DNA of 64,000 nucleotides, taken from Aliivibrio sifiae (GTDB taxonomy: Bacteria; Pseudomonadota; Gammaproteobacteria; Enterobacterales; Vibrionaceae). A program made the position numbers and the translations under genes. How positions within the stretch are numbered: position 1 is the first letter of the stretch; every line of letters begins with the position of its first letter. Positions 28,317-43,354 of this stretch are shown here, in pieces. The stretch is from positions 577,742 to 641,741 of the forward strand of contig NZ_MSCO01000001.1 in NCBI RefSeq assembly GCF_002954705.1, given 5' to 3'. The notes below the pieces were generated by a model. The model was not told where the DNA came from. It made no database searches and saw only the letters and a program-made list of their open reading frames with translations.

Positions 28317-29201
28317 TTATTCTTTTTGATAATTTAAATATTGAATACAGAGAGCATAAAATTGCTGTGCCTGAGGGGAAATAGTTCGACCTGTTAATTG
28401 AAATATGCCAATTTGTCGTTCTAGTGGTGGATCAATCAAAGGGATCCAGACTAACCGTGTTTCATTGGTTGGAAAGGCCAATTTAGGTAATGTCGTAATT
28501 CCTATACCAAGTTCTAATATAGAAAATAATGAGGTTATATTTTCAACAGAATAAAGAGCTTGTTCGCTAAGAATACGAGCCGGTGTTGAGTTGAGTAAAG
28601 TACATGTTCCGTTTCTTATAAAAGGTTGTTCGAGTAAAGTTTGCCACTCGATCCCTTCTGGATTATTTGCTATAGGGTTATCTTTTAAACAAACAACACC
28701 AATAGGATCGCTAATAAGAGGAGTAAAATGAATAGCCTCTTCTTCTAATTGTGAATAATTACCTAAGGCGAGATCTACCTCTCCAGACAATAATCTCGCT
28801 TCTACTCCTGCGGCATTATCATCTATCAAACTGACTTCTACGTTTGGGTATTTCTCGCTGAATGCACCAAGTACGCTCGGAATTAATTTTGCAGCCACTG
28901 AGGGAACACTGGCAATCCGAACGCGGCCTTGTTGTCCTGCGGCATCTGCCTGTAAATCATTCTTTAAACGATCATACACATCTAAAAACTGTGAGATTTT
29001 AGGAAAGCAAATTTCACCAAAAGGGGTGAGTTTTGATTTATTTCCAGCTTCAAATAATGGCTGTTCTAAAATGCGTTCAAGCTCTTTAATCGACGTTGAT
29101 AATGCAGCTTGAGAGCGATTGGCTCGATTTGACGCCGCACGGAAGCCTCCTTCCTCTACGACTAAAGTAAAGTGTTTCAATTGTTGTAGCTTGATGCTCA
29201 T
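28317..29201 (-). CDS. LysR-family transcriptional regulator
   Basis: A 294-residue LTTR: N-terminal winged helix-turn-helix (about residues 1-60; FTLVVEEGGFRAASNRANRS and AALSTSIKELE) and a C-terminal periplasmic-binding-like effector domain (about 90-290). It is divergent from the RidA gene, with a perfect T-N11-A type inverted repeat between them, the usual arrangement in which an LTTR controls the adjacent operon. It probably senses the substrate or an intermediate of the downstream catabolic genes. Confidence 0.9.
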   Translation of the reverse strand: MSIKLQQLKHFTLVVEEGGFRAASNRANRSQAALSTSIKELERILEQPLFEAGNKSKLTPFGEICFPKISQFLDVYDRLKNDLQADAAGQQGRVRIASVPSVAAKLIPSVLGAFSEKYPNVEVSLIDDNAAGVEARLLSGEVDLALGNYSQLEEEAIHFTPLISDPIGVVCLKDNPIANNPEGIEWQTLLEQPFIRNGTCTLLNSTPARILSEQALYSVENITSLFSILELGIGITTLPKLAFPTNETRLVWIPLIDPPLERQIGIFQLTGRTISPQAQQFYALCIQYLNYQKE

Positions 29202-29250
29202 ACCTTAAACCTCACTGTCATCCCTTTATTTATCGAACTCTCACTAAGGT

Positions 29251-29267
29251 GATAAGTTTTTCTTATC
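29251..29267. promoter_or_regulatory. LysR-type operator (T-N11-A inverted repeat)
   Basis: GATAAGTTTTTCTTATC is a perfect 6-bp inverted repeat with a 5-nt centre and contains the ATAAG-N5-CTTAT form of the LTTR T-N11-A box. It lies 49 bp upstream of the LysR gene start and about 104 bp before the RidA start. Confidence 0.7.
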
Positions 29268-29370
29268 GAATGTAAAAAATTTACCGTTAGATTTATCATC
29301 TGTCAATGTGCAATATTTAACCATATTGAAGCATTGTTATTACATGACGAATGAGAGCGTGAAGACTAAA

Positions 29371-29754
29371 ATGAAAAAGCATTCAATAAAAACTGACTTA
29401 TTTGCCTCTAAAGCGCCACTTGAGTGGGCAATTGTAAATAACGGAACTTTATATACCGCTCAGATCCCAATTGACCAATCTGGTGCGGTTGTTGACGGCG
29501 GCATTGAAGCACAAGCACGCCAAACACTAGACAACTTAGTTCATACCTTAGAGTGTGCTGGTGAGTCTTTAGATTCTGTTTTGCAGGTATTAATTTGTGT
29601 CACTGATAGAGAGTACTTAGCCACTGTAAATAAAGTGTACGCAGAGTACTTTAGTGCACCTTATCCAAACCGTGCAGCAATGATTGTTGCAGGGTTAGCT
29701 CGAGAAGAAATGCTCGTTGAATTTGTTGTTTATGCCACAGTCGGATCAGAATAA
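29371..29754 (+). CDS. RidA family (YjgF/YER057c/UK114) protein
   Basis: Probable enamine/imine deaminase that clears reactive 2-aminoacrylate-like intermediates, or a pathway-specific hydrolase. RidA fold features: YTAQIPIDQSGAVVDGGIEA, ARQTLDNLVHTLECAG and the active-site arginine in PNRAAM. I start at 29371 (MKKHSIKTDLF), which fits RidA length (127 residues); upstream in-frame starts at 29308 and 29344 lack ribosome-binding sites. First gene of the operon divergent from the LysR gene. Confidence 0.85.
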   Translation: MKKHSIKTDLFASKAPLEWAIVNNGTLYTAQIPIDQSGAVVDGGIEAQARQTLDNLVHTLECAGESLDSVLQVLICVTDREYLATVNKVYAEYFSAPYPNRAAMIVAGLAREEMLVEFVVYATVGSE

Positions 29755-29842
29755 GCCCAACGCTTTACCTTATTAAATACTAAAGAATTCGTTTTTTATT
29801 GCTTATTTTTAAAAGCAATAATCTTAGAACAAGGAAGATAGC

Positions 29843-31306
29843 ATGACAGTTCAAACACTAAATATTCAAGCAGAGAAATCATTATACATCGGTGGTGAAT
29901 GGCAATCTGGTATCAGTACGATTGCCAATATTAACCCATCAGATATTACGCAGCATTTAGGCCATTTTGCTCAAGCAAGTGAAAGCCAAGTTCAAGACGC
30001 AATTTCAGCCGCAAAAAAAGCGCAACCACAGTGGGAAAAAACACCACTAGAGCGCAAACAAGCGGTACTGCAAGCGATTGGTGATGAGCTAATTGCACGT
30101 TGTGATGAACTAGGACGTTTGCTTTCAAGTGAAGAAGGTAAACCTTTTATGGAAGGTCGTGGTGAGATTTATCGTGCAGGTCAATTCTTCCAGTACTTTG
30201 CAGCAGAAGTACTACGCCAAATTGGGGACAGTGCCGATTCAGTAAGACCGGGTGTTTCTGTTGAGGTAACGCGTGAAGCCGTCGGTGTGATTGCGGTGAT
30301 TTCTCCTTGGAACTTCCCAACGGCAACCGCGGCTTGGAAGATAGCTCCAGCTCTCGCGTTTGGCAATAGTGTTATTTGGAAACCTGCCAATCTTACCCCT
30401 GCAAGCGCCGTGGCCCTTACTGAGATTATTCATCGTCAAGGTTTACCAGAAGGAACGTTTAATCTGGTATTAGGCAACGGTTCTCAAGTGGGCAATGCAT
30501 TAATCAATTCAAAAGAAATTAATGGTGTGAGCTTTACTGGTTCTGTAGATACAGGACGTAAAGTGGCAGCGGCAACTGCACCAAATTTTGTGCGTTGTCA
30601 GTTAGAAATGGGCAGTAAAAATGCGTTAGTGATTGCCGATGATGCCGATATTCAAATTGCGGTTGAAGCAACCATTGCAGGATCTTTTTCTGGTGCTGGT
30701 CAAAAATGTACAGCGTCATCTCGTTTAGTTGTGATGGACGGTATTCATGATGCGTACGTTGAAGCGCTAATTAAACGTATGAGTGAATTAAAAGTAGGTC
30801 ACGCATTAGAAGATAGCATCTTCATGGGCCCAGTGGTTGATGGTAATCAATTGGATGCAAACTTTGGCTGGATAGAAAATGCACGCCAAAGTGGTGCTGA
30901 ATTGGCATTTGGTGGTGAGCGTTTAAATCTTGAATATGATGGTTATTACATGTCTCCAACGCTATTTATTAACACCGATAATAAGTGGGAAGTAAACCAA
31001 GAAGAAGTCTTTGCTCCGATGGCAAGCGTGATCCGAGTGTCTGATTTAGAAGAAGCAATTGCAACGACTAACGATACTCGCTTTGGTTTAACGGGTGGCA
31101 TTATTACTCAAAGTTTACGCACGAGTTCATTGTTTAAACAACAAGCTCAAACTGGGTGTGTGATGGTGAATTTGCCTACCGCGGGTACGGACTATCATGT
31201 GCCATTTGGTGGGCGTAAAGAATCAAGCTTTGGCCCTCGTGAGCAAGGCCAGTACGCAAAAGAGTTTTATACGGTTGTGAAAACGGCCTACCAACGTCCT
31301 TATTAA
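29843..31306 (+). CDS. NAD(P)-dependent aldehyde dehydrogenase
   Basis: A 487-residue ALDH with the general base E255 (QLEMGSKN) and nucleophile C289 (GAGQKCTASS), both in the expected context, and the NPSDI and ISPWNFPTATAAWKIAPALA cofactor segments. It resembles the alpha-ketoglutarate semialdehyde / succinate-semialdehyde dehydrogenase branch, e.g. the VSFTGSVDTGRKV block. So the pathway likely yields a semialdehyde oxidised to a dicarboxylate, but the substrate is not proven. Lies between the RidA and M19 genes. Confidence 0.88.
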   Translation: MTVQTLNIQAEKSLYIGGEWQSGISTIANINPSDITQHLGHFAQASESQVQDAISAAKKAQPQWEKTPLERKQAVLQAIGDELIARCDELGRLLSSEEGKPFMEGRGEIYRAGQFFQYFAAEVLRQIGDSADSVRPGVSVEVTREAVGVIAVISPWNFPTATAAWKIAPALAFGNSVIWKPANLTPASAVALTEIIHRQGLPEGTFNLVLGNGSQVGNALINSKEINGVSFTGSVDTGRKVAAATAPNFVRCQLEMGSKNALVIADDADIQIAVEATIAGSFSGAGQKCTASSRLVVMDGIHDAYVEALIKRMSELKVGHALEDSIFMGPVVDGNQLDANFGWIENARQSGAELAFGGERLNLEYDGYYMSPTLFINTDNKWEVNQEEVFAPMASVIRVSDLEEAIATTNDTRFGLTGGIITQSLRTSSLFKQQAQTGCVMVNLPTAGTDYHVPFGGRKESSFGPREQGQYAKEFYTVVKTAYQRPY

Positions 31307-31362
31307 AATGGATGGAAAATCTACTCAACTAGATGAAACCGAAATGAAATAAGGAGTGATTT

Positions 31363-32352
31363 ATGTATCAACAACGGATTGTTATCGATGGATTGCAGTA
31401 TTGCAATTGGGATCGAGAATATTTTCAAACCTTAAAAGCCAGTGGGATTACTGCGGTTCACGCCACCATGGTGTACCACGAAAACGCACGTGAAACCTTG
31501 AGTCGTTTTGCAGAGTGGAACTTACGCTTTGAGCAAAATGCAGATTTAATCATGCCTATTTATTCGATGGTTGATATTGAAGCTGCAAAAGCGGAAGGCA
31601 AAGTCGGTATTTTCTTTGGCGCACAAAATTGCTCTCCCATTGAAGATGAAATTGGTTTAGTTGAGGTCATGCGTCAGCAAGGGTTGTTGATCATGCAATT
31701 GACCTATAACAACCAAAGCCTACTCGCGACGGGATGTTATGAAAAAAATGATACTGGTATTACTCGTTTTGGTCAGCAAGTGATTGAAGAGATGAATCGT
31801 GTAGGGATGATCGTTGATATGTCTCACAGTGCAGAGCGCTCAACCCTTGAAGCGATTGATTTATCGTCACGTCCTATTTGTATTAGTCATGCCAACCCTT
31901 CTTTTGCTCATGATGCATTACGTAATAAATCAGACACAGTAATTAAAGCATTGGCAGAGCGTGGTGGCTTACTTGGTTTTAGTTTGTATCCATTTCACCT
32001 ACCAAACGGCAGTCAGTGTTCATTAAATGACTTTTGCCAAATGGTCGCGAAAACGGCCGATATGGTGGGGATAGATCATTTAGGTATTGGTAGTGATTTG
32101 TGCCTAAACCAACCACAAGAAGTGTTGGAGTGGATGCGTAATGGTCGTTGGTCAAAAGCGATGAATTATGGTGAAGGTTCAGCGAGTAATTCAGGGTGGC
32201 CAGATGCGCTCCCTTGGTTTTGTGGAAGTGCTGGGATGGAAAATATTTACAATGGATTAATGCGTCACGGGTTCAGTGAATCTGAAGCGGGGAAAATACT
32301 AGGTGAAAACTGGTTTAACTTTTTACAACAAGGACTAGAGCCTATTTCGTAA
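31363..32352 (+). CDS. Divergent M19 (renal dipeptidase-like) protein with altered metal site
   Basis: A 329-residue TIM-barrel protein of PF01244. The two histidines of the second metal site are retained (H155 in VDMSHSAERS, H176 in CISHANPS) but the canonical D-G-H-x-D motif is D9-G-L-Q-Y13, and the bridging glutamate is Q88 (FGAQNCSP). So three of the five usual zinc ligands are missing. The N-terminus (IDGLQYCNWDREYF) and GAQNCSPIEDE resemble, from memory, the 'dipeptidase' of Pseudomonas dimethylglycine/betaine loci, suggesting a specialised subfamily, not a classical dipeptidase. No signal peptide. Confidence 0.8.
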   Translation: MYQQRIVIDGLQYCNWDREYFQTLKASGITAVHATMVYHENARETLSRFAEWNLRFEQNADLIMPIYSMVDIEAAKAEGKVGIFFGAQNCSPIEDEIGLVEVMRQQGLLIMQLTYNNQSLLATGCYEKNDTGITRFGQQVIEEMNRVGMIVDMSHSAERSTLEAIDLSSRPICISHANPSFAHDALRNKSDTVIKALAERGGLLGFSLYPFHLPNGSQCSLNDFCQMVAKTADMVGIDHLGIGSDLCLNQPQEVLEWMRNGRWSKAMNYGEGSASNSGWPDALPWFCGSAGMENIYNGLMRHGFSESEAGKILGENWFNFLQQGLEPIS

Positions 32353-32450
32353 AGCGGACCCATACATGGAGCAGCCTACTCAATACAAAAATAACAGGGT
32401 AGGTGGTAAATACACCTTTGCAGCTGCAAAGCAACTTCTGGAGTCAGAGT

Positions 32451-34049
32451 ATGTCTGATTTAGCCAATAGCGTGAAAGAGTCAAACAAAAATACGATAAA
32501 AAAGGAAACTAAAACCTCAACACTACAAAGTAAAGAATCAACATCTGAAAAGTTAGGGCTTGATAACCCTGCTTTATGGTATAGCGGTGGTTTTATCGCT
32601 CTATTTGTTTTACTTGCATTGGTTGATGGAGAGTTATTATCAACCGTTGTAAATACTGGCTTTTCGTGGGCCGTGAAAATATTTGGTCCTTACTGGCAGT
32701 TACTTTTATTACTGACATTTTTAATTGCTCTTGGGCTTGCAGTAGGGCGTACCGGGCGAGTAATACTGGGGGGGATCGATAAACCTGAAATGGATGGCTT
32801 TCGATGGGTTGCTATTATCTTTTGTACTTTACTTGCTGGTGGTGGGGTATTTTGGGCCGCAGCTGAACCAATAGCACACTTTGTTAATGCACCGCCATTA
32901 TATGGTATTCAAGAGAGCGCTCAGCAAGGTGCCGTAAATGCACTGTCACAGTCATTTATGCATTGGGGGTTTTTAGCCTGGGCGATAGTGGGTGGTTTAA
33001 CTTCCATTGTTGTTATGCACCTTCATTATAATAAAGGCTTGCCTCTTAAACCGAGAATTCTTCTTTATCCTCTTTTTGGTGAGCGTGTACTTAAGGGGCA
33101 CACTGGGGCATTGATTGATGCATGTTGTATTGTCGCTGTTGCTGCGGGAACTATAGGTCCAATTGGCTTCTTAGGTTTACAAGTGAGCTATGCGTTAAAC
33201 GCGTTGTTTGATATTCCTGATGGGTTTACCACACAGTTCATTATCATATTATTTGCGATTGCATTATATACCTTATCAGCATTAAGTGGTTTGAACCGCG
33301 GCATGCAAATGTTAAGTCGATATAACGTAATTTTAGCCGCTGCACTTATGCTTTATATCCTTATTTTTGGTCCAACTGACTTCATTGTGAATAGTTATAT
33401 TCAAGGCGTTGGTAGCATGATTGATAACTTCATACCAATGGCGACATATCGTGGCGATGAAGAATGGTTAAGTTGGTGGACAGTCTTTTTCTGGGGATGG
33501 TTCCTAGGATACGGACCAATGATGGCTATCTTTATTGCGCGTATCTCACGTGGTCGAAGTATTCGTCAGTTAGTATCGATGATCTGTATTGTTGCACCGT
33601 TAGTGACGTGTTTTTGGTTCACCATTGTTGGTGGTTCTGGACTCGCATTTGAAATCACTAACCCGGGTAGTGTTAGTTCAGCTTTTGAAGGGTTTAATTT
33701 ACCGGGCGCTCTGCTTGCAGTGACATCTCAGCTGCCAATGCCAATGCTGATATCTATCTTATTTCTTATCTTAACCACTATTTTCATTGTAACAACGGGT
33801 GACTCAATGACGTACACCATTAGCGTAGTGATCAGTGGTGAGACCGAACCTAATGCCATTATCCGAACTTTTTGGGGGGTGATGATGGGGGTAACCGCAT
33901 TGATTTTAATTTCCTTAGGGTCTGGTGGTATTTCAGCGTTGCAATCCTTCATTGTTATCACCGCGGTTCCTGTCTCTTTGGTTCTCTTGCCTTCATTGTG
34001 GAACGCACCACAGATAGCAATGAAAATGGCCAAAGAGCAAGGTCTATAA
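32451..34049 (+). CDS. BCCT family transporter
   Basis: A 532-residue inner-membrane transporter of the betaine-choline-carnitine family, about 12 membrane segments. It has the BCCT core motif in the variant form WWTVFFWGWFLGYGPMM followed by ARISRGRSIRQL. The variant tryptophan motif differs from choline (BetT) and glycine betaine (BetP) types, so the cargo may be an unusual zwitterion. The ATG at 32451 has a GGAG site at 7 nt; a GTG at 32403 does not. N-terminal 45 residues are hydrophilic and Lys/Thr/Ser-rich. Confidence 0.88.
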   Translation: MSDLANSVKESNKNTIKKETKTSTLQSKESTSEKLGLDNPALWYSGGFIALFVLLALVDGELLSTVVNTGFSWAVKIFGPYWQLLLLLTFLIALGLAVGRTGRVILGGIDKPEMDGFRWVAIIFCTLLAGGGVFWAAAEPIAHFVNAPPLYGIQESAQQGAVNALSQSFMHWGFLAWAIVGGLTSIVVMHLHYNKGLPLKPRILLYPLFGERVLKGHTGALIDACCIVAVAAGTIGPIGFLGLQVSYALNALFDIPDGFTTQFIIILFAIALYTLSALSGLNRGMQMLSRYNVILAAALMLYILIFGPTDFIVNSYIQGVGSMIDNFIPMATYRGDEEWLSWWTVFFWGWFLGYGPMMAIFIARISRGRSIRQLVSMICIVAPLVTCFWFTIVGGSGLAFEITNPGSVSSAFEGFNLPGALLAVTSQLPMPMLISILFLILTTIFIVTTGDSMTYTISVVISGETEPNAIIRTFWGVMMGVTALILISLGSGGISALQSFIVITAVPVSLVLLPSLWNAPQIAMKMAKEQGL

Positions 34050-34154
34050 ACAACATCAATAACGTGAATTGAGTGGTGGAAACATCACTCTATCTGGCTC
34101 TAATAAAAGAGCTACCTATCAATATAATTATAACGAGAAATGGTGGTGAGCAAC

Positions 34155-35840
34155 ATGGATGCACATCGTTCAACGTACGCTGAAACTCATCTGCGTAAAC
34201 CTAAAATTGTAATGGCACCAGAAAGATTAGGTGCAATGCATCAAAATAGGATCAGTTTTGTTCGTAGCCTAATTAGAAAAATGGCACAACAACACTGGCA
34301 AGTGACTAAGCATGAATGGCTGTTATCACCGCAAGGTTTTGGGCATGTTATTTATAAATTAGTGACTCCACATGATGTTTATCACTTAGTGGTATTTTGT
34401 GATGAAATAGCGGATGAAGAGCGGAATGACCGTGTTATTGCCGAAAAGTGGGATGTTACTTTTGCCTTAGTTCTTGGTGATGTTGATGTGACGTTGTTAA
34501 GCAGATTAAGAGAGAATGTACCGCTGCAAGAGGCAGGGCGAAACCCAAATAATGTACTGGTATTAGCAAGAGCAAATAAAAGTGTTCGAGTCTTTGACCA
34601 TCTGGTTTCTCACTTAGCAAAAGGTGAACAACCTAATCAGAAAGAGTTGGCAGAGGTAGGGTATATCCTACGTACAACAGCTGTTTATGGTAATGGCAAA
34701 TTTGGTATTGCTGATTTTAAATTATTAGAGAATAACACTGATTTTAATCAATCGTTTAGCGCGCAAATGTGTGCGGTTTATATGCTGCGCCAATTTAGTT
34801 TGGATTGGGTGCATTACCTTGCGACAGAGCAAGGTGGCGAGAAGGCAATTAGTTTACAGCCTGAATTACAACGTTATCTTGGTGTTGGTAATGCAACGGG
34901 GTTAGGGATGGCACCGTATTTAATTAATCATCCTTGTATTGTAGATCAGTGGATGTTTGCTCGTGAAATAGCTTTGGCTGAGGTTCTTCATCACAGAGTG
35001 TCACTGAATAAGAAATCACCTCTGGATTATTTATTGAAAAAAGCAGTGCTGCACTTAGAGCAGGTTATTACTATTAATGAAGTTCAAGATAACCTTAATC
35101 ATATTGCAGTGTCTGAATTAAAAGAGTTTGTGAACAATTTAGATAATGTACTTGCTCTCAGTTCAACTTGGGAGGATGTAGTCACTCAAGCTCATAATAT
35201 GAGCTTAGAAGCACAAGAGATTCTTCTGTCTTGCTTAATGGAAATTCATCCAGAATTAGTCGATAGATTTGAAGAGCAAATGAACTGTAGTGAAACGCTT
35301 TCTCTACCGAGTGGGAAGAAAGTGCAAGATTTGCAGATAATCATAGAGGGTTGTTATCAATGGGCAATCGGCACTGATTTTACTAAACCAGAGAATAACT
35401 ACTGGTTTTGGTATCGCTCACAAGATAAAGAAGAGCCACGGTTAGGGGTTAGAGGGCAAGAAAAGGGAGAGGACAGAGAGTTGCCATTAGACATTGGTCG
35501 ACAGGTTTATCGCCTTTACCATTCGCTATTGAAATGTGATAAGACGTTATCATTGGCTGAGTTTTTGGTTGAGCATCCTAAGTACCGTGCCATTGCACGA
35601 AGAGTGTGGACATTAGGGCATAAGGCAATGGGGGATATTCAAATGAATGTACTACATAAGTCGTCTTTACCTATGCATTTATTACGCTGTAAATTAGCGG
35701 TGTTTGGTGCGACAAAATTTGATCCTCGCTCAGATCGCTGGGTTAGAGTTACGTTTTTTCAAGGTGCGCCATTGCTCGATGAGATTAATGATGGTGAATG
35801 GCTGTTCCCATTATTGCCAGCCGAAGGAGAAAGCGAATGA
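34155..35840 (+). CDS. Conserved protein of unknown function, BCCT/M19 locus
   Basis: About 561 residues, soluble, no signal peptide, no membrane segment and no motif that I recognise. The N-terminal part (RISFVRSLIRKMAQQHWQVT, then LLSPQGFGHVIYKL) appears helical then beta-rich; the C-terminal part contains SLPMHLLRCKLAVFGATKFDPRSD. GGTGAG upstream favours the ATG at 34155; 34140 is an in-frame alternative. The stop overlaps the next start (ATGA), so the two products are coupled in translation and may form a complex. It is best described as an uncharacterised enzyme or assembly factor. Confidence 0.7.
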   Translation: MDAHRSTYAETHLRKPKIVMAPERLGAMHQNRISFVRSLIRKMAQQHWQVTKHEWLLSPQGFGHVIYKLVTPHDVYHLVVFCDEIADEERNDRVIAEKWDVTFALVLGDVDVTLLSRLRENVPLQEAGRNPNNVLVLARANKSVRVFDHLVSHLAKGEQPNQKELAEVGYILRTTAVYGNGKFGIADFKLLENNTDFNQSFSAQMCAVYMLRQFSLDWVHYLATEQGGEKAISLQPELQRYLGVGNATGLGMAPYLINHPCIVDQWMFAREIALAEVLHHRVSLNKKSPLDYLLKKAVLHLEQVITINEVQDNLNHIAVSELKEFVNNLDNVLALSSTWEDVVTQAHNMSLEAQEILLSCLMEIHPELVDRFEEQMNCSETLSLPSGKKVQDLQIIIEGCYQWAIGTDFTKPENNYWFWYRSQDKEEPRLGVRGQEKGEDRELPLDIGRQVYRLYHSLLKCDKTLSLAEFLVEHPKYRAIARRVWTLGHKAMGDIQMNVLHKSSLPMHLLRCKLAVFGATKFDPRSDRWVRVTFFQGAPLLDEINDGEWLFPLLPAEGESE

Positions 35841-36568
35841 TCGTTTCACATAATGAGTTAGTTGCAGTAACTAATAAGGCATTTCTGGGGATGAGACGTA
35901 CCTGTGGAGAGGCTGATATCATTGCTAACATGGTGGCAGACCTGCAAATGGTTGGTCTCAATGGCGTTAGGCATTTTAATAATGCGACCAAGTTTTTAAC
36001 TGCTGAAGAAGATTGCCCTGTAGATATTACAATGTCCAACTCAGGGAACTTAGTGGTGGACTTACACGGTTGCAGTGTGGCTTGTCATTTGCCTGTCATC
36101 GTTGATTATGCGATTGAAAAAATGGTAGAGAAAAAAGCCTTAACGATCACACTTAAAAAATGCCATAACCGTTGGTTAGCTTACAGTGAATTAGTAAAGT
36201 TGGCTGCGAAAGGTATTGCCTGTAAAGCTCATTGGGAAAACGGTACGAGCCCTAAGCGAACTTTATATGTCTTGAATCGAGGGTGTGTGGCTCCTGAATT
36301 ATTCTTATCCGATAAAATAGATCTAAACAGTGGTTACCTTAATGATATGACAATTGAATTATCTGTAAGAGATTTCAATGTAATGGCACTATCTGAAGGA
36401 TACAGTATTCATATCGATTCCGCGGAATTAAGTTCAACACAAGAGAATGCATGGCGACACGGCATTGATGTTGATGATGTCGATTGGGAAAACTTGAAAA
36501 AAACCGCGACCGCTATTTTAGTCGAAAATAGTGAACAATCTCTAAAAGGGGCTGGTGAACTGGTCTAA
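35837..36568 (+). CDS. Uncharacterised protein, probably DUF3726
   Basis: A 243-residue soluble protein. The N-terminus (VSHNELVAVTNKAFLGMRRT, ADIIANMVADLQMVGLNG) fits what I remember of DUF3726 and resembles the helical start of Ldh_2-type dehydrogenases, but no catalytic residues of that family are visible. It starts at ATG 35837 inside the stop of the preceding gene; the ATG-like start at 35798 overlaps more and is unlikely. Last gene before a terminator, so it closes the operon. Confidence 0.65.
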   Translation: MIVSHNELVAVTNKAFLGMRRTCGEADIIANMVADLQMVGLNGVRHFNNATKFLTAEEDCPVDITMSNSGNLVVDLHGCSVACHLPVIVDYAIEKMVEKKALTITLKKCHNRWLAYSELVKLAAKGIACKAHWENGTSPKRTLYVLNRGCVAPELFLSDKIDLNSGYLNDMTIELSVRDFNVMALSEGYSIHIDSAELSSTQENAWRHGIDVDDVDWENLKKTATAILVENSEQSLKGAGELV

Positions 36569-36596
36569 GTAGGGTAAAAAAGTAATGCATACTAAT

Positions 36597-36630
36597 GGCA
36601 CTCATGGTAAAAACAATGAGTGCCTTTTTT
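36597..36630 (+). terminator. Terminator of the BCCT/M19 operon
   Basis: Stem GGCACTCAT (36597-36605) with ATGAGTGCC (36616-36624), 10-nt loop, T-run. It lies 29 bp after the DUF3726-like gene. Confidence 0.9.
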
Positions 36631-36735
36631 AGACTTGTCTCAAAGTTAAGGTTGTTTGCCTGTATATTTATAAGGCAATTTTACATAAGGTTACTTACAC
36701 TTATTTAGTAAGCATTTAAGGAAGAGGTGGTTTAT

Positions 36736-36903
36736 ATGAATACGTTAGATACAAGTAACAGTATGGTTTCAGATTTAGAAACGACAAAAAAATTACCAAT
36801 TCAACATGATCAGCTAGATGATACCGTAAATACGTGGGACCAATTAACTGAAAAACAACAACAAGATATACTCGCTCATTTGACAGCAATACCTTTTGAG
36901 TAA
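36736..36903 (+). CDS. Small protein (55 residues) of unknown function
   Basis: A 55-codon frame from ATG 36736 to TAA 36903, preceded by a strong ribosome-binding site (AAGAGGTGG, 5 nt spacer). The product starts MNTLDTSNSMVSDLETTKKL and ends ILAHLTAIPFE; it is acidic, without Cys or membrane segments, probably helical in its second half (WDQLTEKQQQDILAH). It stands alone between terminator 36597 and the peptide importer. I do not recognise it. Expression is supported only by the ribosome-binding site and normal codon composition. Confidence 0.6.
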   Translation: MNTLDTSNSMVSDLETTKKLPIQHDQLDDTVNTWDQLTEKQQQDILAHLTAIPFE

Positions 36904-37163
36904 TTTTTGCGTTAAAACATTCTTTAATTTCCTTGTTTGGATAATCTAATCCAATGAGGTTTACTTTGTGACACTTTTATAACAATTGTATCAAAAAACA
37001 GCCTTTCCCTTCCTTATCCCCTCACTATTCTGCAAACTGTTAACTCTATTACATTATCAAGTCTTAGCTTTGTAGTTACTTAATCATTGAGCTAAGTTAA
37101 TAAAATTATTATAAAAATAATAGGCAACGGAGTTTGTCGAAGGATATGGAGCAATAGTCACGG

Positions 37164-38192
37164 ATGATATCTTATCTACTCAGACGACTTTTATTGGTTG
37201 TCCCTACCTTTATCGGTATTACCTTACTTATCTTTGCCCTAACTCGATTTGTACCGGGTGGCCCAGTTGAACGCATGTTACTCAGCTTACAAATGCAAGG
37301 AGCTTCAGAAACTGGTGGTACTAGCAGTGTTACTGATGGTAATAATGCCTTATCTGAAGAGCAAATCGCTGAGCTAAATGCTTTCTACGGCTTAGATAAA
37401 CCCGTATTTGAAGCCTATTATGATTGGTTAACTAAGTTAGTCGTTCTTGATTTAGGTGAATCGACCCGTTATTACGAGCCAGTATGGGACATGATAGCTG
37501 AGCGCTTACCTGTCTCTCTTTTTTATGGGGGAATGACCTTTCTACTTAGTTATATGATCTCTATTCCTCTTGGTTATCTTAAAGCCTTAAAGCATGGTTC
37601 CATTCTTGATTCTACTTCTTCCATTGCGATTTTTGTTGGTTTTGCTTTGCCGGGCTATGTGATTGGTGTTTTCTTGATTAGCTTATTCAGTTACCAATTA
37701 GAATGGTTTCCAATGGGAGGCTTTGTTGGTGATGACTTTGATGACTTCGGAGTTTTTGAGCAAATAAAAGACATTATGTGGCATGCGGTGTTGCCTCTAT
37801 TTTGTTATTTGATTGGTGATTTTGCTTTACTTACCATGACAATGAAAAACAACCTAATGGAAAACCTTGCGTCGGATTACGTGCGTACTGCCATTGCAAA
37901 AGGGTTGCCGTTTAAAAAAGCAGTACGTAAGCACGCATTGCGAAATAGCTTAATTCCTGTAGCAAGTCATTTTGGTAATTCATTAATGTTCTTTATGACA
38001 GGGTCATTTTTGATCGAGGTTATTTTCAATATTGATGGTATTGGATTACTAGGTTATGAAGCGATAATGGAACGTGATTACCCAGTAGTTATGGGATTGT
38101 TTGCCATTAATGCCACCATGTTGATGTTAGGTAATATCTTATCTGACATCTGTGTTGCTGCGGTTGATCCGCGCGTTAAATTTGGAGCTTAA
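37164..38192 (+). CDS. Peptide ABC transporter permease, YejB-like
   Basis: A 342-residue inner-membrane permease: SYLLRRLLLVVPTFIGITLL at the N-terminus, FVPGGPVERML loop, and the coupling region SDYVRTAIAKGLPFKKAV, then SFLIEVIFNIDGIG. The large first periplasmic loop and GGPVE motif are typical of YejB. YejABEF of E. coli imports oligopeptides including microcin C. It is 2 nt from the YejE-like gene and is the first in the operon; the promoter is within 36904-37163. Confidence 0.87.
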   Translation: MISYLLRRLLLVVPTFIGITLLIFALTRFVPGGPVERMLLSLQMQGASETGGTSSVTDGNNALSEEQIAELNAFYGLDKPVFEAYYDWLTKLVVLDLGESTRYYEPVWDMIAERLPVSLFYGGMTFLLSYMISIPLGYLKALKHGSILDSTSSIAIFVGFALPGYVIGVFLISLFSYQLEWFPMGGFVGDDFDDFGVFEQIKDIMWHAVLPLFCYLIGDFALLTMTMKNNLMENLASDYVRTAIAKGLPFKKAVRKHALRNSLIPVASHFGNSLMFFMTGSFLIEVIFNIDGIGLLGYEAIMERDYPVVMGLFAINATMLMLGNILSDICVAAVDPRVKFGA

Positions 38193-38194
38193 TT

Positions 38195-39247
38195 ATGTTG
38201 TCTATTTTAAATTTAAGTCCATTAACGCAAAAGAAAGTTCAACGATTTAAAGGTATAAAACGCGGTTATTGGTCTTTTCTTATTTTATCTTTGCTATTGG
38301 TACTATCGATTTTTGCTGAAGTTTTTGTTAACAGCCGAGCTTTACTTGTTAGCTACCAAGGTCAGTGGCATTTCCCGACGTATGGTGATGTGAAATCAGG
38401 AGACACCTTTGGCTTAGGGTATGCTCATGAAACCAATTACAGAGAATTGCAGCTTAAGTTTGAACAAGAGAGCGAAGGCAATTTTGTCATTATGCCAATA
38501 GTGCCTTGGAACCCTTATGAGCAAGATTTCTCTGGCGATTTTCCACCGACAGAGCCAAGTATCGAAGGAAAACATTACCTAGGCACAGATACCATTGGAC
38601 GAGATATTTTATCGCGCCTGACTTATGGTTTTAGGATTGCGATGGGCTTTGCGCTGATTACGTTAGTGATCTCGTATGCGATAGGGGTCTCTGTTGGCTG
38701 TGCGATGGGTTTCTTTGGTGGAAAGTTCGATCTATTTTTCCAACGCTTTATTGAAATTTGGTCTATGGTGCCATTTTTATACGTCATCATGATTTTAGTC
38801 TCGATAATGAAACCAAGCTTTATGCTCTTTACCTTAATTAACGTTATGTTTGGTTGGATGGGAATGACATGGTATATGCGAACCATGACCTATAAAGAAA
38901 AATCCAGAGAATATGTGATGGCAGCGAAAGCGCTAGGTGCGTCTAATTCTCGTATTTTATTTCATCATATTTTGCCTAATACCATGGTCATGATCGTGAC
39001 ATTAGCACCATTCACTATTGTTGCTAATATCACAGCACTAACAGCATTAGATTATTTAGGGTTAGGACTTATGCCTCCGACGCCAAGTTGGGGAGAACTA
39101 TTGCAACAAGGTAAATCTAATTTAGATTCACCTTGGATCGCTACTTCGGTTGTGACTGCTATTGTTACTGTATTAATTATGGTGACTTTTATTGGGGAGG
39201 GGATACGTGAAGCTTTTGACCCTAAGAAACATACTCGATATGAGTAG
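38195..39247 (+). CDS. Peptide ABC transporter permease, YejE-like
   Basis: A 350-residue permease with the YejE-type extended N-terminus: FKGIKRGYWSFLILSLLL, ALLVSYQGQWHFPTY, then HYLGTDTIGRDILSRL and the C-terminal LTALDYLGLGLMPPTPSWGE and GEGIREAFDPKKHTRYE. Pairs with the YejB-like protein. Very short spacing to both neighbours (2 nt and about 50 nt) marks the same operon. Confidence 0.87.
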   Translation: MLSILNLSPLTQKKVQRFKGIKRGYWSFLILSLLLVLSIFAEVFVNSRALLVSYQGQWHFPTYGDVKSGDTFGLGYAHETNYRELQLKFEQESEGNFVIMPIVPWNPYEQDFSGDFPPTEPSIEGKHYLGTDTIGRDILSRLTYGFRIAMGFALITLVISYAIGVSVGCAMGFFGGKFDLFFQRFIEIWSMVPFLYVIMILVSIMKPSFMLFTLINVMFGWMGMTWYMRTMTYKEKSREYVMAAKALGASNSRILFHHILPNTMVMIVTLAPFTIVANITALTALDYLGLGLMPPTPSWGELLQQGKSNLDSPWIATSVVTAIVTVLIMVTFIGEGIREAFDPKKHTRYE

Positions 39248-39296
39248 TTCTACTTAATCGTTTAATGGAATGAATAATAAAAATAGGAAGGGATTT

Positions 39297-41141
39297 ATGA
39301 CGATAAAAAAGAGACTGGTATTGCTGTCAGCATCAACTGCCGCTTTATTCAGTATAAATGTATTTTCGGCCGATCTTCCAGCCAATCTTGAATGGAAAAC
39401 AAATGATAGCGCGCCAACGTTTGCGTCTTCTCAAGCTACATTTGGTGGTACCTTTCGGACCTATACATTAAGTTTTCCACAGACTTTTAGAACAGTAGGG
39501 CCTGATTCTAATGGATCATTCAGAGCATGGATTTTAGAAGCTAACTTACCACCGTTAATTAAACACCCTAATACCAATGAATGGTTACCAGGCCTTGCTC
39601 AATCATGGGCGTTTGGCGACGATAATAAAACCGTCTACTTTAAGTTAAACCCAAAAGCTACATGGAGTGATGGCAAGCCCGTTACTGCGGACGATTATCA
39701 GTTCATGCTTAAATTAATGCGCTCAACTGACATTGTTGCACCTTGGTACAACGATTTCTTTACTAATGATATTGCAGATATTATTACGTTTGATAAACAC
39801 ACTATCGCAATCGTGTCAGCAAAAGCTCGAAATCGTGATGAGCTTATCGCCTATACCAACTTAATGCCCCGTCCTAAACACTTCTACGGTGAGCCTAAAA
39901 TCGATGAAAATAATGATGGCATTGATGATAAATTCGTCCGTAAATATAACTTTAAACCAGAGCCTGTAACAGGGCCTTACTACATAGATAAAATTAAAAA
40001 AGGGAAGAATATTACCTTTAAACATGTCGGTAAAGATTGGTGGGGCTATGAGAATAAATACAATCAAAACCGTTATAACGTAGAGAAAATTAATATCAAA
40101 GTGATCCGTGATGCGGACATTGCGTTAAAGCATTTTGAAAAAGGTAATTTAGATACGTTTGATTTAGTGCGTCCTGATTTATGGCATGAAAAATCGGAAG
40201 GGAAAAATTACCAAAAAGGCTATATCCAAAAAGCGTGGGTATATAACCAAGCTGCGGTTGGTGCTGGTGGCTTGTGGTTAAATACCTCAAAACCTATGCT
40301 GGATGATATCAATGTTCGTCAAGGCATTATGTATGCGACGGATTTTGACATGATGATAGAGAAGGTGTTACGAGGAGATTATTCTCGTAAGCCAAATGGC
40401 ATGGGGTTTGGTCACCCTGGTTATGATAATACGGAATTAAAAGCGCCTAAGTTCGATGCAAAAAAAGCGATTGGACACTTTGAAAAAGCAGGTTTTAAAA
40501 CGGTAGGTTCTGATGGTATTCGAGTTAATGATAATGGTGAACGGTTAAGTTTTGCAGTGACGTACTCTCAACAATCCTTTACCCCACGAGTTGCTGTATT
40601 AAAAGAACAAGCAAAACAAGCAGGATTAGATCTTGAGCTTAACCTGATTGATGGATCGAGTATGTTTAAATATGTACTTGAGAAAAAACATGATATTTCC
40701 TTCCATAATATGGGAACCGGAGAGATCCCCGCTTACTGGGAATACTTTCACTCAGATAATGCCAATAAACCACAAACCAATCACTTTACTAATTTTTCTT
40801 CACCTGAGTTAGATGCGTTAATCATTTCATTCAAAAATGAGTTTGATATTGAAAAAAAACAAGCACTATCTCGTGAGATCCAGCAAGTTATAGCTGATGC
40901 AAACGTGATAGTTCCGGGCTATATGGTGCCTTATGCTCGTGCGGGTTATTGGCGTTGGATTAAATTACCAGAGCAAATAGCAACGAAGCAGACGGGATAT
41001 TTATTTCATGGTTGGGGATTCTCTCAAACCTTCAGTACTTTTTGGATTGATGAAAAAACCAAGAAAGAAACTAAAGCGGCAATGAAGTCAGATAAAACGT
41101 TTGAACCAGTCATTATTATTGATGAAACCTATAAGCTGTAG
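39297..41141 (+). CDS. Peptide-binding periplasmic protein, YejA-like
   Basis: A 614-residue family 5 substrate-binding protein with a signal peptide (MTIKKRLVLLSASTAALFSI, cleavage near NVFSA). The start of the mature part, ATFGGTFRTYTLSFPQTFRT, is typical of YejA, as is LPPLIKHPNTNEWLPGLAQS. I start at ATG 39297, which has GGAAGGG in front; an ATG at 39270 is in frame with no site. It supplies oligopeptides to the YejB/YejE-like permeases. Confidence 0.87.
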   Translation: MTIKKRLVLLSASTAALFSINVFSADLPANLEWKTNDSAPTFASSQATFGGTFRTYTLSFPQTFRTVGPDSNGSFRAWILEANLPPLIKHPNTNEWLPGLAQSWAFGDDNKTVYFKLNPKATWSDGKPVTADDYQFMLKLMRSTDIVAPWYNDFFTNDIADIITFDKHTIAIVSAKARNRDELIAYTNLMPRPKHFYGEPKIDENNDGIDDKFVRKYNFKPEPVTGPYYIDKIKKGKNITFKHVGKDWWGYENKYNQNRYNVEKINIKVIRDADIALKHFEKGNLDTFDLVRPDLWHEKSEGKNYQKGYIQKAWVYNQAAVGAGGLWLNTSKPMLDDINVRQGIMYATDFDMMIEKVLRGDYSRKPNGMGFGHPGYDNTELKAPKFDAKKAIGHFEKAGFKTVGSDGIRVNDNGERLSFAVTYSQQSFTPRVAVLKEQAKQAGLDLELNLIDGSSMFKYVLEKKHDISFHNMGTGEIPAYWEYFHSDNANKPQTNHFTNFSSPELDALIISFKNEFDIEKKQALSREIQQVIADANVIVPGYMVPYARAGYWRWIKLPEQIATKQTGYLFHGWGFSQTFSTFWIDEKTKKETKAAMKSDKTFEPVIIIDETYKL

Positions 41142-41195
41142 CGCTTATTCTTATAAATTAATGGCTAGGAGAGGGATCTCTTAGCTAGAAAATAA

Positions 41196-41361
41196 TAATA
41201 CCAATTCCATTAATTATCTAATCATTATTACTGGTTAAATCACTCAATAGTTGCGTTAAAAATTATTCTTGTAGAATAACTACTTATAAGATTTTTTGCC
41301 TTACTCTTAAGTGATTTTTCTGCGTAATAAATAGATCATCTAATTAGTTACATTGGTATAA
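41196..41361. repeat. MITE-like palindromic repeat element (~165 bp)
   Basis: Imperfect terminal inverted repeats: TAATACCAATTCCATTAATT at the left end and, read from the right end inward, TATACCAATGTAACTAATTA. The interior also shows imperfect dyad symmetry (AAATCACTCAATAG against AAATCACTTAAGAG; TTATTC-TTG-TAGAATAA at the centre), so the whole element can fold into one long hairpin. It has no ORF. It lies between the YejA-like and first ATPase genes of one operon. From memory similar ACCAATTCCATTAATTA repeats are dispersed in Vibrio genomes. Confidence 0.72.
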
Positions 41362-41381
41362 TAAAAATAGTGAAGAAGCAT

Positions 41382-42389
41382 ATGGAAAGAAAAGTTGTAT
41401 TAGCCGTTGAAGATCTAGTGACAGAGTTTCAAACGGACGAAGGAACAGTTCGAGTGCTTGATGGTGTGAGTTTTCAAGTACCTAAAGGTAAAACTATTGG
41501 GATTGTTGGTGAATCGGGCTGCGGAAAAAGCGTCACGTCCATGTCTATTATGGGCTTACTGCCTAAGCCTTACGGTAATGTGGTTGGTGGTCGTATCTTA
41601 TACGGAGATATCGATCTGGTTCAATTAAGTACCGATAAATTATATGAAATGCGAGGTAACCGTATTTCAATGATTTTCCAAGATCCCATGACAGCATTAA
41701 ACCCTGTACATACCATTGGAAAGCAAATTAATGAAGTATTAGAGCTTCATCGTCCTGATTTAGATAAAAAACAGCGTTTAGCATATTCAATTGAAATGCT
41801 TGAAAAAGTAGGAATGCCCTCACCAGAAACGCGATTGCACGAATATCCACATAATCTATCTGGTGGTATGCGCCAACGAGTCATGATAGCAATAGCTCTT
41901 GCTTGTGAGCCTGATATTTTGATTTGTGATGAGCCAACGACTGCACTAGATGTGACTATCCAAGCTCAGATTTTAGAGTTAATGAAAAAACTGCAAGATG
42001 AAACGGGTATGTCGATTATTTTTATTACTCATGATTTAGGCGTTGTTGCTGAAATATGTGATGAAGTAGTCGTGATGTATGCAGGAAGGGTAGCTGAACA
42101 AGCTGGTATTTTTGAATTATTTGATAACCCTAGTCACCCATATACAAAAGGACTAATGTCCTCAATGCCTAGCTTGAGTCTTCAGCCAAAAACAGAGCTT
42201 GAAACCATCCAAGGTACCGTACCTTCCTTAAGTGAAATGCCAAGCGGTTGTCGTTTTTCAACTCGTTGTAAATACAAGCAAGAGAAATGCGAGTCGGAAG
42301 TACCTATGATGAGCGAAATCAGCTTATTACACCAAGTGAGTTGTCATTTTAGTAATGCATTATCGATCAGTACTGAGGAGATAAAATGA
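41382..42389 (+). CDS. Peptide ABC transporter ATPase, DppD/OppD-like
   Basis: A 335-residue ATPase with Walker [10 protein letters not shown], signature [12 protein letters not shown], Walker [13 protein letters not shown], and the C-terminal oligopeptide ABC domain with Cys-rich motif ([15 protein letters not shown]). It takes the N-terminal half of what is a fused two-domain YejF in E. coli; here the two are separate genes. I chose ATG 41382 ([12 protein letters not shown]); GTG 41370 is an alternative. The next gene begins inside its stop (ATGA). The repeat element just upstream separates it from the permease genes. Confidence 0.88.
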
Positions 42390-43354
42390 GTGAATTGTTG
42401 AGTGTTGATGATCTCAAACAGTATTTTTACTCAGGTAAAGGGATCTTTAATAAGGGTTATGTGGTTCATGCGGTTGATGGAGTTTCACTGAGTGTTAATA
42501 AAGGTGAAACGCTTGGGCTTGTGGGGGAGTCTGGTTGTGGAAAAAGTACATTAGGTCGTAGCCTTCTGAAGTTATTTGAGCCAACTTCCGGGCGTATTTT
42601 TTTTGAAGGGCAGGATATTACTCATTTAGGCAATAAAGAAATGCGCTCACTTCGTCAAGAGATACAGATTATCTTTCAGGACCCAACAGAATCATTAAAT
42701 CCTCGTCATACTATTGAAATGATCTTAGAGGAACCTTTTGTTATTCATAATGTTGGGACAAAAGAAGAACGCAAACAGTGGGTAGAAGAGCTATTGATAA
42801 AAGTGGGCTTACCAATAAGTGCTGCAACCCGTTATCCTCATGAGTTTTCTGGTGGGCAGAAACAACGTATTGGAATTGCTAGAGCTATAGCATTGAAACC
42901 AAAGTTAATTGTGTGTGATGAGTCAGTATCTGCATTAGATGTATCTGTTCAAGCGCAAATTGTGAATTTATTATTAGCTTTACAACGAGAGATGAATTTA
43001 GCATTAATTTTTATTGCTCACGATCTTTCGGTGGTTAAGCATATTTCAGATAAAGTTGCGGTAATGTACTTAGGTAAAATAGTGGAATATGGCGACTCAG
43101 AGACGCTTTATCATTTTCCTAAGCATCCTTATACCGAAGCATTATTATCCGCTATACCTGTTTCTCATCCTAGATTCAGGGGGAAAAAACGCATTATTTT
43201 GACTGGCGATGTACCATCACCAATTAACCCTCCCAAAGGCTGTCGATTTTCTACAAGGTGTCCAAAAGCAGAAAAGCAATGTTTTAAAGAGGAACCACAA
43301 AGAAAGATTTTAAATAATGCAGGTCATGAAGTTGCTTGTCATTTATATAAATAA
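42386..43354 (+). CDS. Peptide ABC transporter ATPase, DppF/OppF-like
   Basis: A 322-residue ATPase: Walker [10 protein letters not shown], signature [14 protein letters not shown], Walker [13 protein letters not shown], and the C-terminal Cys-rich motif [15 protein letters not shown]. It starts in the preceding stop codon (ATGA). It completes the five-gene peptide importer. Confidence 0.9.

Follow-up and report, generated by a model that had tools for sequence, protein, structure and literature searches.

The window analysed here, a 64,000-nucleotide stretch of the Aliivibrio sifiae genome (contig NZ_MSCO01000001.1, positions 577,742 to 641,741), carries a six-gene operon with a divergently transcribed LysR-type regulator. 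The operon encodes a RidA family protein, an aldehyde dehydrogenase (ALDH), an M19-fold protein, a BCCT transporter, a 566-residue protein that we call HYP566 (its relatives being HYP) and a DUF3726 protein. The operon is catabolic and widely conserved, and it most probably corresponds to a RidA-bearing version of the homarine operon or to a close homologue of it; gene content makes it likely that the operon degrades an N-methylated cyclic zwitterion, with homarine (N-methylpicolinate) as the best candidate, and that it represents the Vibrionaceae version of the hom pathway. A first-pass annotation had pictured a single catabolic unit under a LysR switch that probably takes up a zwitterion and proceeds through a C=N intermediate and a semialdehyde step, a picture that our analysis supports. 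The same annotation held that the set matches no known operon and that no substrate can be assigned; both statements now need revision, since a probable counterpart exists in the homarine operon reported in 2026 and homarine can be proposed. That report of a conserved bacterial homarine pathway (Ferrer-Gonzalez et al., Nat Microbiol 11:1531) is cited in the available part of PMC13390433. Judged from the entries, no other publication describing hom genes was found among the literature matches listed, and the accessible portions of PMC12817926, PMC9723723, PMC9038784 and PMC10041152 give no homarine gene.

If this reading is correct, Vibrionaceae and many other bacteria degrade a common marine osmolyte with release of methylamine rather than N-methylglutamate, HYP566 is part of an enzyme without a known family, and RidA, usually a housekeeping safeguard, is here a dedicated pathway enzyme exchangeable for a reductase. 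New here, at the level of sequence, are the probable kinship of DUF3726 with the Ldh_2 dehydrogenases, the motif loss in M19, the loss of the aromatic box in BCCT, and the mutual exclusion of RidA and Ldh_2 with swaps between them.

Conservation of the operon

The scan of genome contigs yielded at least 590 stretches, at least 585 of them HYP566 relatives. The best 80 loci were analysed; being the most window-like, they are biased toward the layout of the window. DUF3726 was found in 79 of these and M19 in 77, the four gaps sitting on contigs of 3.8 to 5.2 kb. Flanks of 5 kb or more on both sides were available for 62 loci; of these, all have M19 and DUF3726, 58 have ALDH, 56 LysR, 55 BCCT and 50 RidA, and 49 have the full set of seven families. 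The 80 loci include Vibrio, Photobacterium, Moritella, Psychrobacter, Shewanella, Poseidonibacter, Halomonas, Marinobacter and Pseudomonas, as well as Oceanospirillaceae, Halieaceae, a Pelagibacterales assembly and metagenome-assembled genomes labelled Bacillales and Anaerolineae. In genome samples that each contained the window's genome, HYP566 matches were present in 7 of 14 genomes at the level of the genus, in 63 of 150 at that of the family and in 38 of 397 at that of the phylum. For DUF3726 the corresponding figures were 17 of 148 for the order and 13 of 274 for the class, with one of these 13 below the Pfam cut-off. The closest named relative of HYP566 among the matches listed was from Aliivibrio sifiae (96%). 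Carriage on plasmids is common (168 plasmid records), so that mobility as such is possible; phage carriage was considered and rejected, no HYP566 relative having been found in viral contigs or phage records.

Gene neighbourhoods were counted by tblastn in two samples; clustering of open reading frames (ORFs) had mislabelled some high-GC genes owing to antisense frames. The first sample comprised 107 loci with a HYP match, 78 of them flanked by 5 kb or more on both sides. The counts cover 77 of these, since L038, a locus of the Sinorhizobium meliloti type that would be scored as having neither RidA nor full-length Ldh_2, was left out (L040 and L046, of the same type, were kept). In this sample M19 lay near HYP in 76 of the 77 loci, DUF3726 in 74 and BCCT in 60, and a glycine-betaine ABC binding protein in 5. 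The second, broader sample drew on 40 further loci, of which 35 were counted after L193-L195 (taken as repeats of the L055, L085 and L079 genomes) and L181 and L198 (short flank) had been left out; ten of its loci are pairs from single genomes (G488, G502, G558, G716 and G720), and G641 gives two more. Loci from Shinella and Roseateles add purU, and that from Roseateles also folD, for one-carbon disposal.

Conservation extends to the regulatory region. The palindrome GATAAG-N5-CTTATC between LysR and RidA, noticed in the first-pass annotation as a T-N11-A operator, is probably the LysR operator, as predicted from its sequence: T-N11-A palindromes occur in 26 of 28 LysR-RidA intergenic regions (window included) versus 9.7 expected, and the more specific GATA-N9-TATC in 23 of the 28 versus 0.2 expected, with both expectations derived from single-base shuffles and the 28 regions related to one another.

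RidA, Ldh_2 and N-methylglutamate dehydrogenase genes

In many loci RidA is replaced by a full-length member of the Ldh_2 family, which comprises malate/L-lactate and ureidoglycolate dehydrogenases and includes imine reductases. The first sample contained 55 loci with RidA, 12 with full-length Ldh_2, none with both and 10 with neither (Fisher test, 1.8e-8). The idea of exclusion arose from this sample and was then put to the second with identical queries and thresholds; there, 9 loci had RidA, 10 had Ldh_2, none had both and 16 had neither (Fisher test, 0.036). The two P-values ignore the relatedness of the loci, and the tblastn queries for soxA and Ldh include genes of counted loci (L022, L041, L102 and L110), the query families having been checked. 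No Ldh_2 match was found in the window's genome.

The same pattern would arise if RidA and Ldh_2 acted on different intermediates and their exclusion reflected lineage history and similarity thresholds. This explanation, which concerns one step only and is compatible with homarine as the substrate, draws on P-values that take no account of kinship and on the taxonomy of the counted loci, those with RidA being mostly gammaproteobacterial and those with Ldh mostly from other groups; it is at odds with the repeated exchange of the two genes. On a tree of HYP proteins, the RidA/Ldh state changed at least eight times among 87 rows (the tree held 114 rows, namely 78 from the first sample, 35 from the second and the window, and came from a quick search with a long-branch warning). 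In Marinomonas (L115), Ldh_2 occupies the slot next to BCCT in which eight loci of the same layout hold RidA. Moreover, RidA occurs in Phaeobacter and Sulfitobacter loci, Ldh in Marinomonas, HTCC2148 and a Halieaceae assembly, and the two co-occurred in none of 112 loci. We therefore regard separate intermediates as improbable, though by no means negligible, and favour the reading that RidA and Ldh_2, whose genes have been exchanged, would be two ways to dispose of a single C=N intermediate.

Genes of the heterotetrameric sarcosine-oxidase type have been proposed as the SAR11 N-methylglutamate dehydrogenase (Mgd) in the available part of PMC3160333, and Mgd takes part in homarine catabolism according to that of PMC13390433. 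In the first sample, soxA-type genes lay near 6 of the 12 Ldh loci, none of the 55 RidA loci and 1 of the 10 others. In two uncultured alphaproteobacterial assemblies (L102 and L125), soxA-type and Ldh_2 genes lie close to M19, HYP and DUF3726 on a single stretch; family scans confirmed both kinds of gene, the soxA-type scores of 1154 and 1148 being under the cut-off of 1164. In Ruegeria TM1040 the run reads soxA, soxG, regulator, LysR, ALDH, M19, BCCT, HYP, DUF3726, Ldh. The window's genome (4.46 Mb in four contigs) has no soxA match above the cut-off, only partial ones, the best reaching 120 bits on one part. Eight of nine gammaproteobacterial genomes with HYP likewise have no soxA match at E <= 1e-100; RidA was seen at the locus in all of the nine except G045, where a contig end hides that side. 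Seventeen more distant HYP genomes all carry soxA, those of the RidA type included, so that the comparison is uninformative there.

Homarine as the proposed substrate

The homABCDER operon of Ferrer-Gonzalez et al. (2026) reportedly occurs in Rhodobacterales and SAR11 and has N-methylglutamate as a product. Its name implies five enzymes and a regulator, a number with which the window would be compatible if the transporter is left out. Ruegeria TM1040 has LysR with ALDH, M19, HYP, DUF3726 and Ldh, plus BCCT, and the window differs in having RidA in place of Ldh_2. The reported taxa agree: the gene set is found in Ruegeria, Phaeobacter and Sulfitobacter, and M19-HYP-DUF3726 in the Pelagibacterales genome SAG-MED31, in which no ALDH was found within its 8.5 kb. 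Just as hom is linked to N-methylglutamate dehydrogenase, several Ldh-type loci of the gene set adjoin soxA-type genes. The carriers of the betaine type found at these loci also fit. The hom pathway uses Mgd downstream, outside the operon, whereas the window's genome has no soxA/Mgd-type match above the cut-off, which makes the window operon a probable variant rather than a proven member of the hom type.

Several observations weigh against this probable identification. In the second sample, M19 lay near HYP in 31 of the 35 loci, DUF3726 in 27, LysR in 15, ALDH in 14 and BCCT in 8; conserved co-occurrence of the six genes, which the first-pass annotation had named as a check, is borne out for this gene set, though ALDH, LysR and BCCT are often missing in the broader sample. 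Several genomes carry extra HYP copies in other contexts, six of them multiple copies; part of the second-sample loci are such extra copies within one family, and some stand beside genes without an evident link. A distant version on S. meliloti pSymB and in Ensifer has a different transporter, of the ABC type, and is joined by an aminotransferase and RidA. These gaps, copies and the pSymB version imply that the core is not specific to a single substrate. The soil isolates Aminobacter, Pararhizobium and Caballeronia carry the gene set, so that the substrate may be broader or different. The link between Ldh and soxA was not significant in the second sample (soxA near 1 of 10 Ldh loci) or in a tree-aware pair test (median p 0.25); the gammaproteobacterial genome G417 combines a RidA-type locus with soxA, and five distant genomes of the RidA type (G488, G502, G641, G716 and G720) have soxA elsewhere. 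The substrate may differ between branches, with the window operon in the ALDH-BCCT-LysR branch.

Alternatively, an operon that works on the same principle could serve a different zwitterion, N-methylated or cyclic (for example trigonelline, proline betaine, or another pyridinium or betaine), the hom operon then being something else. This would suit the soil and plant-associated carriers, the six genomes with several HYP copies, and the loci in which M19-HYP-DUF3726 adjoins an MttB-type methyltransferase, a methyltransferase for homocysteine and an FAD-oxidoreductase/GcvT-like protein. It leaves aside that the gene count and the spread over SAR11 and Rhodobacterales fit what is reported of the homarine operon, as does the N-methylglutamate link. 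Known routes for proline betaine and trigonelline use a Rieske or flavin monooxygenase, and the seven families include neither. We consider such a substrate unlikely and continue with homarine.

For homarine, the balance C7H7NO2 + 3 H2O = HCOOH + C6H11NO3 (N-methylglutamate semialdehyde) means that an oxygenase is in principle not needed; no known oxygenase family is among the seven, HYP566 itself being of no known family. BCCT would import the zwitterion, and the substrate or a product would bind LysR, which would act at the conserved GATA-N9-TATC. M19, HYP566 and DUF3726, the genes most often kept together where others vary, would carry out ring opening with loss of the outer carbon. Opening of a pyridinium-2-carboxylate ring should pass via an enamine or imine at carbon 2, groups that are hydrolysed by RidA and reduced by imine reductases. 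ALDH would oxidise the omega-semialdehyde to the carboxylate, in the case of N-methylglutamate semialdehyde to N-methylglutamate, and hydrolysis of the C=N at carbon 2 by RidA would yield methylamine and a 2-oxo acid. Where full-length Ldh_2 stands in for RidA, as in other lineages, it would instead reduce this bond, and an enzyme of the N-methylglutamate dehydrogenase type would then demethylate the resulting N-methyl amino acid. Because the window's genome lacks both Ldh_2 and this dehydrogenase, methylamine and a 2-oxo acid are its predicted products.

The M19 protein matches its profile with 244.3 bits (cut-off 26), beginning at profile position 35, and is atypical, as the first-pass annotation had said. 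It is homologous to the classical membrane (renal) dipeptidase, but in an alignment with three classical M19 proteins DGLQY and GAQN replace THID/GHND and MENG/IEGG, so that L-Q-Y stands at the HxD motif and Gln at the Glu; the later His, His and Asp are common to both. These residues bind metal in classical M19 proteins. An ordinary dipeptidase was rejected on the loss of HxD and Glu, both of which are also missing from a fourth M19, that of locus L203. The same loss makes it very improbable that the operon is a peptide or osmolyte scavenging unit of loosely related functions, in which M19 would be a dipeptidase, as its family membership suggests, and ALDH and RidA general detoxifiers, RidA being known as a general enamine/imine deaminase; the tight co-conservation of the genes and the alternation of RidA with a dehydrogenase family also speak for a dedicated pathway. 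By sequence, the closest solved structure is 2i5g, which we take to be the Pseudomonas aeruginosa protein of the pepD-hp-dgcAB-fixAB cluster. This dimethylglycine cluster of Vibrio natriegens and P. aeruginosa places a predicted dipeptidase beside a hypothetical protein, resembling M19-HYP566 of the window (PMC12093977, as far as available); its other enzymes differ from those of the window operon.

The first-pass annotation counted the last two proteins as unknowns, which stands for HYP566 and holds only in part for DUF3726. HYP566 has 79 invariant columns in 46 aligned sequences (window included), some of which fall in two motifs used by the genome scan to choose matches. No Pfam match was consistent across these sequences (at most three share one), no NCBIfam match was found, and a search of solved structures gave no relative, its single match having an E-value of 2.3. 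DUF3726, which no publication names among the literature matches listed, appears from its sequence to be related to the Ldh_2 dehydrogenases, though shortened and divergent: of 46 family members 23, the window copy not among them, match PF02615 (Ldh_2) at E <= 0.001, the best at 8.6e-14, and 24 of 46 do so at E <= 1. A direct hhalign comparison with seven Ldh_2 rows gave a weak, suggestive match (probability 20.9, E 0.0011), and the proposed relationship rests on the Pfam matches. Ldh_2 proteins have about 335 residues and DUF3726 about 240; DUF3726 also lacks the SHG motif that the full-length Ldh_2 proteins encoded at these loci contain, and for this reason it is probably not a working dehydrogenase. 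HYP and DUF3726 form one gene in Mesorhizobium, as annotated, and apparently also in Poseidonibacter (an 802-residue frame).

In the BCCT protein, called a variant in the first-pass annotation, the box segments read by eye are HWGFLAWAIV and WGWFLGY: the Tyr of transmembrane segment 4 is replaced by Val, and the second and third Trp of segment 8 by Phe and Tyr, relative to the glycine-betaine aromatic box (PMC12093977, in part available). Three V. natriegens BCCTs with an altered box imported no osmolyte tested, as given in the accessible text; together with the changes in the window protein, this suggests that the latter likely carries a substrate other than glycine betaine. The best curated model for ALDH is alpha-ketoglutaric semialdehyde dehydrogenase (NF042993), whose score of 461 bits, far below the cut-off of 770, hints at the size of the substrate and assigns none.

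We tentatively propose that HYP566, DUF3726 and M19 form a new ring-opening enzyme, a possibility that we hold to be doubtful in its full form. It would open an N-methylpyridinium by O2-free hydration and hydrolysis and be built on a dipeptidase fold with a partly lost metal site and a degenerate dehydrogenase. The pathway would have two exchangeable ends, RidA (methylamine and a 2-oxo acid) or Ldh_2 (an N-methyl amino acid), and the form in which nitrogen leaves this major marine osmolyte would depend on the taxon.

Locus layout and HYP genes in other settings

All seven genes are open and have the order and strands given in the first-pass annotation, LysR being divergent from RidA-ALDH-M19-BCCT-HYP566-DUF3726. 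Pfam matches above the cut-offs were obtained for LysR, Ribonuc_L-PSP (RidA), Aldedh, Peptidase_M19, BCCT and DUF3726, and none for HYP566.

Table 1. Coordinates of the operon features within the window
Feature	Position	Strand	Basis
LysR-type regulator, divergent	28317..29201	-	PF03466 1.1e-36, PF00126 8.3e-15
T-N11-A palindrome GATAAG-N5-CTTATC, probable LysR operator	29251..29267		sequence
RidA family protein	29359..29754	+	PF01042 4.9e-21; start GTG 29359 or ATG 29371
Aldehyde dehydrogenase (ALDH)	29843..31306	+	PF00171 2.9e-148
M19-fold protein without HxD motif, Gln for classical Glu	31363..32352	+	PF01244 2.3e-72
BCCT transporter without glycine-betaine aromatic box	32451..34049	+	PF02028 3.4e-149; GTG start 32403 possible
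HYP566 (566 aa), conserved, no known family	34140..35840	+	alignment of 46 sequences
DUF3726 protein, probable shortened Ldh_2 relative	35837..36568	+	PF12525 2.3e-17

The last two genes, described earlier as coupled, overlap by ATGA at 35837-35840, which places the start of DUF3726 better at 35837 than at 35798. The RidA start position has GTG in nine of ten aligned rows (window included) and ATG in the remaining one. RidA scores 75.4 bits against PF01042 (cut-off 27.3) and 72.2 bits, below the cut-off of 106.25, against the subfamily model TIGR00004; LysR is 37% identical to the LysR of the Pseudomonas locus L020. On the 3' side, about 600 bases (36569-37163) hold no ORF of at least 90 residues, and the genes at 37164-43354 beyond look like an ABC peptide-transporter set.

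HYP genes were also seen in other settings. In three loci of family f233 (L168, L180 and L183), the neighbours of M19-HYP-DUF3726, identified by family scans of L183, are an MttB-type methyltransferase, a homocysteine S-methyltransferase, a protein of the PEP-mutase family and one of the FAD/GcvT type, possibly marking a second substrate for this core. Seven loci (L172, L174, L184, L185, L186, L189 and L190) have HYP with a short neighbour gene, M19 in several of them and surrounding genes common to several; no ALDH or BCCT was found nearby. Plasmids of S. meliloti, Bosea and Ensifer (L038, L040 and L046) bear a distant locus of IclR, HYP, an unknown gene, M19 and an ABC transporter, followed in L038 and L046 by an aminotransferase, an ALDH match and RidA. 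On plasmid pNVE500 of the haloarchaeon Natrinema versiforme (L039), a HYP relative (33% identity) is followed by an unknown gene and BCCT, with no M19 match nearby at the threshold used. Finally, HYP genes in five genomes (G702, G704, G773, G824 and G827) have an in-frame TGA or are split over several frames, through sequencing error or decay.

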